Assembly: GCF_017316025.1 (NCBI RefSeq)
Contig: NZ_JAFLVT010000018.1
Coordinates: 1-44,353 of the forward strand
Length of the DNA stretch: 44,353 nucleotides
Source: Candidatus Enterococcus myersii
GTDB lineage: Bacteria > Bacillota > Bacilli > Lactobacillales > Enterococcaceae
Direction of reading: 5' to 3'
How positions within the stretch are numbered: the first letter of the stretch is position 1; each line of letters begins with the position of its first letter. Positions 40,829 to 44,353 of the stretch are shown here, piece after piece. Made by a program: the position numbers and the translations under genes. The notes under the pieces are model-generated. The model was given only the letters and a program-made list of their open reading frames with translations. It searched no databases and was not told the origin of the DNA.

Positions 40829-42940
40829 GTGAAAAATATTAAAACTCCCGCTTTCTTAAATAAACGGCTGGGCTTCTTTACCTTATTAGCCGTTCTTTTT
40901 TGGGCCAAAAACATTTTTGCCTATTTTGTTGATTTTAACTTAGGCATTGAAAGTATGCGTCAATACTTCATCTTATTCATTAATCCAATCGCGACAACTT
41001 TATTCTTGTTGTCCATTGCATTATATGTCAGACGCACAAAAGCTTCTTATATAACTATGATGGTGATTTACTTTTTGATGTCGTTATTGCTTTTTGCTAA
41101 CGTTTCATATTACCGTGAATTCACCGACTTTATCACAATTAATACCATGCTTGGAGCTGGTAAAGTTGCTAGCGGTTTAGGTGAAAGTGCCATTCGCTTG
41201 TTCCGCCCTTATGATTTACTTTACTTCGTTGATATCTTGGTACTTGTTGCCATGCTATTTGCTAAAAAGATTAAGATGGATGATCGTCCCGTTCGCGCGC
41301 GGATGGCATTTGCTATCTCCACGTTATCTGTGATGATCTTCTCTGGTAACTTATTCTTAGCTGAAGTTGATCGCCCAGAATTATTAACGCGAACATTCTC
41401 TCGTGATTATTTGGTCAAATATTTAGGGATTAACGCTTTTACCGTTTATGACGGTGTTCAAACCTATCAAGCTTCTCAAGTTCGGGCTCAAGCAAGTGCC
41501 AATGACATGAAAGAAGCCCAAAGCTATGTCAAAAGTCATTATGCAGCACCAAATAGTGAATACTTTGGGATGGCCAAAGGCAAAAACGTTATTTACATTC
41601 ATTTAGAAAGTACGCAACAATTTTTAATTGACTACAAATTAAAAGATGCTGAAGGTAAAGAACATGAAGTAATGCCATTTATCAACAGTTTATATCATAG
41701 CAAGAGTACTTTTAGCTTTGATAATTTCTTCCATCAAGTGAAGGCCGGAAAAACTTCGGACGCTGAAACATTAATGGACAACTCATTATTTGGTTTAAAT
41801 CAAGGTGCTTTGATGACCCAATTAGGTGGAAAAAATACTTTCCAATCTGCGCCAAACATTCTAAATCAAACACTTGGATACTCCAGTGCCGTCTTTCATG
41901 GTAATGCCGGAACTTTCTGGAATCGAAATGAAACGTATAAACGTTGGGGCTATCAAAACTTCTTTGATGCTTCTTACTACGATGTAAATGACAGTAACTC
42001 ATTCCAATACGGTTTACATGATAAGCCATTCTTTGAACAATCTGTTAAATACTTGGAACAATTGCAACAACCGTTTTATTCAAAATTTATTGCCGTTTCA
42101 AACCACTTCCCTTACTCACAATTTACAAATGATGAAGCAGGTTTCCCAATGGCAGATACAAACGATGAAACAATTAACGGCTACTTCGCTACAGCTAACT
42201 ACTTAGATCGCGCAGTGGAAGAATTCTTCCATTACTTGAAAGCTAGTGGCTTATATGATAACTCTGTAATTGTTTTATACGGTGATCACTATGGTATTTC
42301 AACTTCACGGAATAAAAACTTAGCTGAACTATTAGGTAAAGATAAAGAAACATGGACAGGTTTTGACGATGCTCAAATGCAACGGGTTCCTTATATGATT
42401 CATATACCTGGTCAATCAAAAGGTGGCATTAACCATACTTATGGTGGTCAAGTTGATGCCTTACCAACCTTATTACACTTACTGGGTGTGGATACCAAAG
42501 ATTACATTCAACTAGGTCAAGACTTACTTTCAAAACAACACGAACAACTTGTAGCTTTCCGCGATGGTGATTTTGTTACTGACAAATACACTTATTACGG
42601 TGGAACGCTATACGATAACGCAACTGCTCAAGCGATTACTGCTCCAGATGAACAGTTGAAAACACAAGTTACAAAATGGAAAGATGAAGTTGGGAAACAA
42701 TTAGCAACTTCTGATCAGATCAATAATGGTGATCTGCTGCGTTTTTATACCGGTAATAACTTAAAAGAATTAGATCCTGAAAAATTCAACTATAAAAATG
42801 CTTTGGATCAATTAGGCAAACAAGAAAGCAAATTAGGGAATAAATCAACTAGTGTCTATTCCGAACATGGGAATAAATCAACTCAAGATTTATACCAAAC
42901 TAAGACCTACAAACAATACGAAGCAGAAGGTCATAAATAA
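40829..42940 (+). CDS. ltaS: Lipoteichoic acid synthase, LtaS type
   Basis: Polymerises glycerophosphate units from phosphatidylglycerol on the outer membrane face to build lipoteichoic acid. With GTG 40829 as start (GGAAGG 8 bases upstream) the protein has 703 residues; a TTG 36 bases earlier lacks a ribosome site. Five membrane helices lie in residues about 15-180, then an extracellular sulfatase-fold domain. Active-site features: Glu259/260 in IHLES, the nucleophile Thr309 in GKTSDAE, and YGDHYG near residue 485 with the metal-binding Asp-His. The tail after 620 is polar. Two homologues are usual in enterococci; which one this is cannot be told. Confidence 0.92.
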   Translation: MKNIKTPAFLNKRLGFFTLLAVLFWAKNIFAYFVDFNLGIESMRQYFILFINPIATTLFLLSIALYVRRTKASYITMMVIYFLMSLLLFANVSYYREFTDFITINTMLGAGKVASGLGESAIRLFRPYDLLYFVDILVLVAMLFAKKIKMDDRPVRARMAFAISTLSVMIFSGNLFLAEVDRPELLTRTFSRDYLVKYLGINAFTVYDGVQTYQASQVRAQASANDMKEAQSYVKSHYAAPNSEYFGMAKGKNVIYIHLESTQQFLIDYKLKDAEGKEHEVMPFINSLYHSKSTFSFDNFFHQVKAGKTSDAETLMDNSLFGLNQGALMTQLGGKNTFQSAPNILNQTLGYSSAVFHGNAGTFWNRNETYKRWGYQNFFDASYYDVNDSNSFQYGLHDKPFFEQSVKYLEQLQQPFYSKFIAVSNHFPYSQFTNDEAGFPMADTNDETINGYFATANYLDRAVEEFFHYLKASGLYDNSVIVLYGDHYGISTSRNKNLAELLGKDKETWTGFDDAQMQRVPYMIHIPGQSKGGINHTYGGQVDALPTLLHLLGVDTKDYIQLGQDLLSKQHEQLVAFRDGDFVTDKYTYYGGTLYDNATAQAITAPDEQLKTQVTKWKDEVGKQLATSDQINNGDLLRFYTGNNLKELDPEKFNYKNALDQLGKQESKLGNKSTSVYSEHGNKSTQDLYQTKTYKQYEAEGHK

Positions 42941-42945
42941 TTTAT

Positions 42946-42986
42946 AAAAAGAAGTTTCGGTTTTTAACCGGAACTTCTTTTTTTTG
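42946..42986 (+). terminator. Terminator of ltaS
   Basis: Perfect 17-bp arms with core GAAGTTTCGGTT (42946-42962) and its complement (42966-42982), 3-base loop, seven-T tail. Confidence 0.92.
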
Positions 42987-43046
42987 CAAAAACAACTTCA
43001 TACTTTATTCAAACTCACCTCGTATAATTTTTATGAGGTGAAAAAG

Positions 43047-43778
43047 ATGCGGACAGTTCATTATGCAGTTGCCAGTTTACGTTACCATAAAAAAATCTAT
43101 CTTCCTTATTTTATCGTACTAGTTCTTTTGACTGTCGCACTATTTTTTGCACTGTGTTTAGTCAATTCAGCTCAGGCCATTTACTATGGTCTCCAAGATT
43201 TACTTGCCAACAACCCAATTAATGAAAATAAACAATGGAGCGCCCCACTCCAATTTTTCTTTACACAAATGAAAAATATTTATTGGTTGGTGGTGTTAGG
43301 AACAGTCAGTTTGCTAACGCTGTTTACCTTCTTGTTTTCTGGTCATGCTTTTACTCGCCGCAAACGAGAACTACAGACTTTTTTTACTTCAGGTCGCTCT
43401 CATTTACGAGTTGCGTTGCAAATTGCTTACGAGTTTGTTTTACCCGCGCTTTTCATTGTTGGCTGTCTAATTTGCCTTGTTTTGATTTTCCAGCCACTAG
43501 TACAACGCCTTTGTGAATTGATTCATACCCATACTGCACAAATCATTCGATCCAATGATTTAGCAAATCTAAATAATAATATAAAATTTGGAGTCCGCTT
43601 ACCAAAGGACTACCCGCTTTTAATTCAGACAGTTTTCATTAGCAATCGTGATTGGCTACAAATTTTTACTAAAACAGCTTGGCAAACGTTACTTTTATTG
43701 CTAATTAACTTTGGTATTGGGTTACCCCTTGGGGCTTTATTAGCCAAAATACGCTTATTAAAAAAGAGCATAAATTGA
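43047..43778 (+). CDS. Small FtsX-like ABC permease
   Basis: A 243-residue membrane protein with four helices (about 17-38, 75-96, 127-150, 214-236). The stretch after helix 2, FTRRKRELQTFFTSGRSHLRVALQI, matches the coupling region of FtsX-type permeases (R-K-R-E-L...G-S). It is about one third the size of antibiotic-sensing BceB-type permeases and has no large extracellular domain; the helix 3-4 loop is about 60 residues. ATG at 43047 with GAGGTG before it; TATAAT at 43023-43028 is a possible -10. The next gene encodes an ABC-ATPase-like protein without catalytic motifs, and no terminator separates them, so they probably act together. Confidence 0.7.
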   Translation: MRTVHYAVASLRYHKKIYLPYFIVLVLLTVALFFALCLVNSAQAIYYGLQDLLANNPINENKQWSAPLQFFFTQMKNIYWLVVLGTVSLLTLFTFLFSGHAFTRRKRELQTFFTSGRSHLRVALQIAYEFVLPALFIVGCLICLVLIFQPLVQRLCELIHTHTAQIIRSNDLANLNNNIKFGVRLPKDYPLLIQTVFISNRDWLQIFTKTAWQTLLLLLINFGIGLPLGALLAKIRLLKKSIN

Positions 43779-43873
43779 TTCGTCATGATTCCATCATTAA
43801 GAAGCTATTGAAGTAAATAATTGTTATTTAGTTTGCGCAAAGGCTATTTATGTAAAGTAAAGGAAGTGTTTTT

Positions 43874-44353
43874 ATGGAAAAAATTAGCCAACAAAATTTT
43901 AAAGTTTTTTATGGTAGGACGTTATCAGAAGCCCAGCAAAATTTTCAGCGAGAATTACAACGTCTCACAGCAGATGTTGGCAAAATCAGCTTAACTCCTG
44001 ATTTTATTCCTTACCTTTCGATAACTGAAAATCTATTAATGGGCTTTCCCAATAAGTTTTATAAACAAAAAATTACCGAGCTGCCCTTAGCCAAAGAACT
44101 TCAAATCACCGCTGGACTTTTAAACAAAGAAGTCGCAAGCTTAACTATGGTAGAAATCATTCAGTTACAGCTTTTTCGTGCTTTATTAGCAAATAATAAA
44201 TTTATCTGTTTTGAAGATATCACCACCGCCTTAAATATCCCGCAACGTCAACAACTCTTCAACCTTTTTCGCGATTTGATTGAAAAAGATGACTTGGTAA
44301 TCTATCTTTTAACCACCGATGAGGCATTAGTCGATAATTTAAAACAAGTAGAA
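43874..44353 (+). CDS. Degenerate ABC-ATPase-like protein, cut by the window end
   Basis: 160 codons are visible, without a stop, from the ATG after AGGAAGTG. The protein follows the order of an ABC nucleotide-binding domain but has lost its catalytic motifs. No Walker A (GxxxxGKT) exists: the N-terminus reads MEKISQQNFKVFYGRTLSEA. KISLTPDFIPYLSITENLLMGF resembles the Q-loop region without its Gln. The signature LSGGQ is replaced by LTMVEIIQLQLFRALL. Walker B is FICFEDIT instead of LLLDEPT. The switch His is Thr in YLLTTDEAL. The frame is open throughout, so this is not a simple frameshifted pseudogene. It may be a regulatory or structural partner of the permease upstream. Confidence 0.65.
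   Translation, partial: MEKISQQNFKVFYGRTLSEAQQNFQRELQRLTADVGKISLTPDFIPYLSITENLLMGFPNKFYKQKITELPLAKELQITAGLLNKEVASLTMVEIIQLQLFRALLANNKFICFEDITTALNIPQRQQLFNLFRDLIEKDDLVIYLLTTDEALVDNLKQVE

Follow-up and report, generated by a model that had tools for sequence, protein, structure and literature searches.

An enterococcal ABC-type pair of a small FtsX-type permease and a predicted catalytically dead ATPase beside ltaS

Organization of the locus

The window analysed here, a stretch of 44,353 nucleotides from Candidatus Enterococcus myersii, is the first part of a 284-kb contig and ends immediately before a two-base assembly gap. The closest named species by LtaS are E. dispar and E. canintestini, at 96% identity. 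The features considered in this work are as follows.

40829..42940, + strand: ltaS, lipoteichoic acid synthase (NCBIfam LtaS 827 bits, below the 970-bit cut-off; Pfam Sulfatase 1.9e-38)
42946..42982, + strand: intrinsic terminator in the ltaS/permease intergenic region (17-bp hairpin of -19.9 kcal/mol plus T run; z -6.6, 0/200 shuffles as stable)
42997..43011, + strand: direct repeat TTCA-N7-TTCA with an 11-bp period, proposed PieR/YclR box (from comparison of named loci)
43023..43028, + strand: -10 element TATAAT, 11 nt past the repeat (fixed gap across named loci)
43047..43778, + strand: small FtsX-type permease of 243 aa without a large extracellular domain (from Pfam FtsX and profile matches)
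43368..43394, + strand: coupling-helix segment of the permease, E108 to G116 (from Gly116 conservation)
43874..44353, + strand: predicted catalytically dead ABC ATPase, 160 of 161 codons in the window (from profile, motif counts and AlphaFold2)
44003..44038, + strand: putatively retained docking segment of the ATPase, F44-L55 (FIPYLSITENLL), after the lost Q-loop Gln (from column counts)
44141..44155, + strand: position of the ABC signature, reads LTMVE (LSGGQ-like in 0/105 relatives)
44201..44218, + strand: former Walker B strand, reads FICFED (hydrophobic strand retained)

A preliminary description of this DNA had read the ATPase frame at 43874 as intact and preceded by a ribosome site. Both points hold: AAGGAAG lies at 43860-43866, the last codon and the stop fall beyond the window end, and in a one-contig genome of the same species the gene comprises 161 aa and a stop. 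A truncated or frameshifted gene is ruled out by this full 161-codon copy, there being no premature stop or frameshift beyond position 44353. The two-base gap, at 44354 onward (L033:6355), is flanked on both sides by a perfect inverted repeat, a likely hairpin 3' of the ATPase gene.

The same description had placed the pair directly 3' of ltaS, and the position is correct, but a strong terminator (z -6.6) stands between them. Given this terminator, the pair probably has its own transcription start, and simple co-transcription with ltaS is rejected.

Distribution, gene order and selection

The short ATPase was found in 71 of 105 genomes of the Enterococcaceae and in three further families, mostly 3' of ltaS; the call comprises best matches of at least 74 bits, the next matches, at no more than 66 bits, being longer ABC ATPase frames. 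Across the 73 loci read (71 in the family and two from other families), the family permease lies 5' of the ATPase in all 73, ltaS lies 5' and in the same direction in 68, a convergent PieS-like kinase lies 3' of the pair in 69, and rlmI lies past ltaS in 67; at least two of the five loci without ltaS end at a contig edge. Conservation outside the strain and linkage to ltaS, both proposed beforehand as checks, are thus observed. Given that rlmI is kept too, the linkage of the pair to ltaS may partly be inherited gene order.

An order-wide permease search of 395 genomes gave, among the matches listed, 30 further pairs that were read, in families f8 (which includes Vagococcus), f2 and f9. Here ltaS lies on the same strand in 25 of the 30 stretches, in two of them 1.7-2.1 kb off, and some of the stretches read contain the pair but no ltaS. 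The class-wide permease search returned 5 of 398 genomes at E<=1e-9, with a profile that is weighted to Enterococcus and gives no measure of range.

A survey anchored on ltaS and blind to the pair covered the best 80 of 358 named loci, in which the permease follows ltaS in 66, 44 of these with the ATPase and 22 without; among the remaining 14 are contig ends and a second copy of ltaS. For the 22 ATPase-less loci, frames were read to the kinase or beyond in 11, and the other 11 were assigned by profile search alone. The named and unnamed locus sets overlap and are not independent, all counts are of related genomes, and gene names in part of the genomes were inferred from profiles and primers.

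Several individual loci depart from the common arrangement. In the avium-group loci L152, L161, L167 and L189, a gene of about 480-510 codons, read from its sequence as a purine-type permease, occupies the place of the ATPase gene in the interval between permease and kinase. The ATPase of E. cecorum has shrunk to 134 aa (L169:8948-9352) and that of a near relative (L177) is similarly short, which represents an intermediate stage. The ATPase gene carries an in-frame stop in L096 (genome G023) and a split frame in L132 (genome G076), with the permease open in both. Locus L143, from the record Enterococcus faecalis 13-SD-W-01, is grouped by the LtaS tree with E. durans, E. lactis and E. mundtii, and its E. 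faecalis name therefore looks doubtful.

Both genes of the pair are under purifying selection and evolve faster than ltaS: interspecies dN/dS ranges over 0.06-0.13 (ATPase) and 0.09-0.19 (permease), compared with 0.01-0.03 for ltaS, the ratios being rough because dS exceeds 1 in all but two comparisons (both ltaS, 0.7). No defence-system match was obtained at E<=0.01.

Loss of the catalytic motifs in the ATPase-like protein

The window ATPase has no Pfam match at E<=10 and only weak matches to NCBIfam ABC ATPase models (best E 1.6e-7). A 43-row family profile, however, matches solved ABC ATPases with a best value of 1.1e-11, among them MJ0796 (3.2e-10), YtrE (1.1e-9) and BceA (3.1e-9), as well as the LolD and MacB ATPases. 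AlphaFold2, run on the ATPase alone, gave a mean pLDDT of 86.8 and a pTM of 0.82, with the element order strand-helix-strand-helices-helix-strand-helix-strand-helix; as modelled, this is the order of the ABC core minus the extra sheet. Judged by significant profile similarity together with this predicted core order, the protein is an ABC ATPase fold by descent.

The absence of Walker A, LSGGQ, the DE pair and the switch His, noticed earlier in the window protein, is confirmed, and the Q-loop Gln is missing too; the DE pair is counted here as the hhhhDE string. Motifs were counted in 105 ATPase sequences (the 73 and 30 described above and two of cecorum type), with five intact paralogues as reference. 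Walker A (G-x4-GK[ST]) and the LSGGQ signature are each present in 0/105 relatives vs 5/5 intact paralogues, and GK[ST] occurs nowhere in any of the 105. In the catalytic Glu column 67/105 have D and 4/105 have E, the window reading E-D, and an hhhhDE string is found in five of the 105. The switch His column holds His in 13 and Thr in the window, and a 16-residue stretch of the beta subdomain (residues 62-77 of an intact paralogue) has no counterpart in all 105. Near-invariant new residues are also present, with Gln in 96/105 at the window Q99 column and in 82/105 at the Q126 column. Since Walker A and LSGGQ are missing throughout, the loss is old; no relative with either motif intact, and hence no intact orthologue of the pair, is found among the 105, and the loss of these two motifs is common to all.

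Such a protein would no longer use ATP by the known mechanism. That it still binds or hydrolyses nucleotide by an unusual route could be argued from the acidic residues still found at the end of Walker B in many of the sequences and from a core fold predicted with fair confidence, yet the 105 sequences uniformly have no GK[ST], no LSGGQ-like signature for the opposite site and no counterpart of the beta-subdomain stretch, and we regard this route as very improbable. A slowly decaying relic without function is more improbable still: it would fit the disappearance of the ATPase from 22 named loci (best 80 of 358), the 134-aa remnant of E. cecorum, the in-frame stop in G023 and the split frame in G076, and it is opposed by dN/dS well below 1, by conservation over several families, by the near-invariance of the family-specific Q99 and Q126 and by a promoter layout that is unchanged (see below).

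The permease and its coupling helix

The preliminary description had also called the gene at 43047 a stripped FtsX-type permease, and this is borne out, with FtsX-type features kept. Pfam FtsX gives a sub-threshold match to the window permease (E 0.0019, residues 81-169, below the gathering score), and matches 15 of 19 permease relatives at E<=1, the best at 1.5e-7. Among solved structures, those matched by the permease profile are YbbP (5.5e-6), another ABC permease (1.6e-4), FtsX (0.0045) and, weakly, MacB (0.037). The sequence is consistent with four helices and a coupling helix between TM2 and TM3.

This coupling segment follows the ATPase closely. Its length is 36-37 residues in 105/105 permeases beside the ATPase, and it is shortened to 24-34 residues in 20 of the 22 permeases without it, which are those drawn from the 66 named loci (best 80 of 358). 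Gly116 is present in 101/105 permeases with an ATPase neighbour vs 2/22 without; an acidic residue at position 108 likewise occurs in 101 of the 105, and an alignment-free coupling motif in 92. E. columbae and E. aquimarinus retain the segment though the ATPase is missing. On the LtaS tree of the 66 loci (best 80 of 358), at least four changes of ATPase state, three of them forced by well-supported branches, and two changes of the coupling segment are placed; with so few events, an independent-pairs test of co-loss is without power.

The ATPase has a conserved counterpart to this segment just past the lost Q-loop Gln, with P in 92/105, L in 97/105 and N in 83/105. According to passages of a study on pneumococcal FtsEX, residues 86-96 of FtsE, the same region, contribute to the cavity that receives the coupling helix of FtsX, and FtsE is bound by the FtsX peptide ISREIQIMRLVGA (PMC7468199). 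The window permease, from E108 to G116, has an E-to-G spacing identical to that of pneumococcal FtsX. We infer that the two proteins bind and that the ATPase holds the permease at the coupling helix.

A coupling helix kept as though for a real ATPase could also point to a mixed pair of ATPases, in which the permease dimer carries the dead protein together with an active one encoded elsewhere in the genome (e.g., the intact Lmo1505-type protein) and is still driven by ATP. The own genome does encode an intact Lmo1505-type ATPase and many ABC ATPases (112 FtsE-profile stretches), and E. columbae and E. aquimarinus keep the helix in the absence of the dead partner. Nevertheless, the helix is mostly lost with the dead ATPase (20/22), so that no other ATPase seems to keep it, and FtsX-type complexes are homodimers as a rule; we consider a mixed pair unlikely.

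A conserved promoter before the permease

A block of about 75 nt upstream of the permease has hardly changed across five genomes, between most of which synonymous sites are saturated, and it carries TTCA-N7-TTCA-N11-TATAAT. In the named loci (best 80 of 358), TTCA-N7-TTCA lies within 560 nt after ltaS in 66/66, including all 22 without the ATPase, and TATAnT stands at exactly 11 nt from the repeat in 65, the 66th reading TACAAT. The permease promoter TTCA-N7-TTCA-N11-TATAnT in 65/66 named loci (best 80 of 358) is new here. A general promoter scan, with 8 found vs 6.8 expected, missed the permease site, which was found by comparison.

Controls covered the spacing and the place of the repeat. 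It occurs in 64 of the 66 ltaS-permease intergenics as cut vs a letter-shuffle mean of 0.49, and TTCA spacings of 3, 4, 5, 6, 8, 9, 10 and 11 in these intergenics give counts of 0, 0, 0, 0, 1, 0, 7 and 0. In uniform 250-nt upstream cuts it is found before the permease in 55/64, ltaS in 2/66, rlmI in 3/66, the kinase in 1/60 and the regulator in 9/59. Searches of whole genomes with the full pattern, which was derived from this permease site, found a single copy in each of 9 genus genomes out of 10, always at this permease, with 0 for the reversed-pattern control; the tenth genome, without the full pattern, is 88% complete and has no short ATPase found. Among the 30 loci of other families, 28 have the repeat, which is missing in L248 and L268 and present in L247 and L262, both without ltaS in the stretch.

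A looser repeat pattern gave 4 sites in the own genome vs 1 in the control. An htrA-like gene (L298, G000:C27:573059) has TTCATATTTTTTTCAAA upstream at a different distance to its -10-like element, and is not counted as a target because of that gap. An 11-bp direct repeat suits an OmpR-type regulator, and TTCATANTTT is reportedly the site of B. subtilis YclJ.

A proposed PieRS/YclRK-type regulator

The kinase and regulator beside the pair have PieS (432 bits) and PieR (312 bits) as their best NCBIfam matches, below the curated cut-offs of 850 and 450, and on these matches the two-component system belongs to the PieRS/YclRK family. Among control genomes, B. subtilis is the one match of the PieS model. 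By its numbering, E. faecalis EF1260-EF1261 is presumably the same neighbour of the pair. It is named YclRK in passages of one report (PMC6506618), and passages of another place it among strong signals for polymyxin resistance in E. faecalis (PMC7701990). Of the 26 pair-bearing genomes tested, 25 have PieS, but so do 34 of 39 genomes in which no pair was found, and the co-occurrence of PieS and the pair therefore says little.

Passages of a study in Listeria report that PieRS controls lmo0442, lmo0881, lmo1505, lmo1506, prsA1 and prsA2 (PMC12234432). Two Listeria-family loci contain the lmo1505 primer sequences printed there and are thus the Lmo1505/Lmo1506 locus. The exact repeat precedes the Lmo1506-type permease in four of five Listeria-family loci, the fifth differing at one position, and the hexamer at the 11-nt gap is a weak TAATCT; the exact repeat also precedes the lmo0881 orthologue that was read (identified by primer match), with TATAAT at that gap. 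Among prsA-type genes of five Listeria-family genomes, the exact repeat is found in 4/9, and in 0/5 of the other kind. In the four of these genomes that have two prsA-type genes (L354-L362), exactly one copy each bears the repeat. The -10 at the fixed gap of the four prsA-type repeats reads TATTCT in two and bears poor to no resemblance in two. We take the repeat-bearing copy in genome G158, by its position, to be probably prsA1; prsA2 is said to be PrfA-controlled too. A blind search for the exact repeat in seven Listeria-family genomes found 20 sites vs 6 reversed, 7 of the 20 with a hexamer having A2 and T6 at the gap and 13 without a -10-like hexamer there. Since the exact repeat stands before some of the known PieRS targets and not before the prsA2-type ones, it marks several, not all, of them.

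A PieR-type regulator would bind the repeat in the permease promoter, and the conservation of this control element suggests induction of the pair by a known envelope-stress system. The idea of a non-transporting regulator of envelope synthesis, put forward in the preliminary description, fares unevenly: a dead ATPase and a stripped permease are indeed conserved beside ltaS, while the role as a regulator stays inferential, with the evidence pointing more directly to PieRS/YclRK-type envelope-stress control than to regulation of LtaS.

The pair might instead act as the sensor of PieS, as BceAB does with BceS, in which case induction by PieR would form a feedback loop. Its place next to the kinase in 69/73 loci, the promoter repeat common to PieRS targets and the presence of PieS in 25/26 pair-bearing genomes tested are in line with this. 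PieS in 34/39 genomes without a pair found, however, can probably work alone, and the kinase is missing from the stretch read in the E. canis locus and in the f8 loci L251-L261. We regard a sensor role as improbable.

Origin and proposed function

The own genome encodes an intact side-by-side pair that is matched by both halves of the dead pair: the permease has 527 aa, and the ATPase, of 225 aa, carries Walker A and LSGGQ. Compared with the ABC pair beside PieRS-type genes in three Listeria-family genomes, the identity of this intact pair is 56-61% for the ATPase and 37-40% for the permease. This intact Lmo1505/1506-type pair (L246, G000:C27) adjoins a different two-component system, at 81 and 91 bits to PieRS-like proteins. 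The dead-pair permease profile aligns to Lmo1506-type permeases in two blocks, which in the intact protein are about 245-265 residues apart, the first 45-50 residues of the profile forming block one, weakly (2-7 bits), and positions ~43-56 to 168-173 forming block two (28-42 bits). By this alignment, the permease looks like an Lmo1506-type permease minus its extracellular domain.

We contend that the pair is probably an ancient, stripped, non-hydrolysing derivative of an Lmo1505/1506-type ABC complex that is induced by envelope stress and has the permease as its working part. Comparison establishes the family, the age of the loss, the docking co-conservation, the promoter layout and the occurrence of its repeat before several PieRS targets. 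The ancestor would have been a transporter of the Lmo1505/Lmo1506 type, which in Listeria lies beside PieRS. Of its permease, the membrane helices and the coupling helix would remain and the large extracellular domain would be gone; of its ATPase, the core fold and the coupling-helix groove would remain, and Walker A, a portion of the beta subdomain, the signature and the catalytic residues would be gone. Under envelope stress, the neighbouring PieRS/YclRK-type system would be activated, and its response regulator would most likely turn the pair on via the dedicated promoter. The ATPase would then serve as a cytoplasmic cap or sensor on the permease coupling helix without using ATP, and the permease as the acting part in the membrane, with an effect on the envelope, possibly on LtaS and lipoteichoic acid synthesis.

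The permease is taken as the working part because several lineages have lost the ATPase and still keep the permease behind the same promoter. In agreement with this, passages of the Listeria study describe an lmo1505 deletion as obtained and an lmo1506 deletion as not obtained, though insertions were viable (PMC12234432). Control by B. subtilis YclJ of genes for sugar decoration of the envelope, as given in passages of PMC7961091, together with the position beside ltaS makes teichoic acid a reasonable first guess, not more.

A further-reaching reading, which we offer tentatively and hold to be possible, is that an ABC complex has abandoned ATP entirely and is now an ATP-free membrane device of the envelope-stress response. 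Its stages could be traced from intact transporter to docked dead ATPase, shrunken ATPase, loss of the ATPase, loss of the coupling helix and permease alone, the later stages under one unchanged promoter. If true, a widely conserved ABC-type complex would have an ATPase subunit that still docks but no longer catalyses, extant forms would span the steps from an intact transporter to a stand-alone permease, and ATP-free work by an FtsX-type permease would become directly testable. The PieRS/YclRK family would also gain an enterococcal target, and the promoter layout is a tool for finding further targets of PieRS/YclRK-type systems.

Comparison with known systems

No description of the pair or of a dead FtsE-like ATPase was found in the literature as represented by titles, beginnings of abstracts or passages. 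The solved ATPases of the type VII ABC systems MacB, LolD, BceA and YtrE are matched by the dead-ATPase profile, and the permease profile matches MacB weakly (0.037). These systems have working ATPases and mostly larger permeases.

FtsEX, one of the reference systems of the preliminary description, resembles the pair in the E-8-G spacing of its coupling helix and in where the docking segment lies on the ATPase. FtsE is catalytically complete, though, and FtsX has an extracellular domain of its own. Membership in FtsEX is rejected: contig C26 alone passes both the FtsE and the FtsX_ECD cut-off, which places the true FtsEX of this genome at another site; the window pair falls short of each, its permease is not among the FtsX_ECD matches, and the dead ATPase is not among the 112 stretches matched by the FtsE profile in the own genome. 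The Lmo1505/1506-type pair is closer.

PieRS, YclJK and YclRK are the family that the neighbouring kinase and regulator match best; they are the proposed regulator of the pair, not the pair itself. Lmo1505/Lmo1506 of Listeria differ from the pair in that their ATPases have Walker A, their permease is about 250 residues longer between the aligned blocks, and their genes are divergent from pieRS, with no ltaS in the stretches read. They are nevertheless the nearest intact subfamily seen by both halves of the pair, and, like it, they lie beside PieRS-type genes and have the identical repeat before the permease in 4/5 loci.
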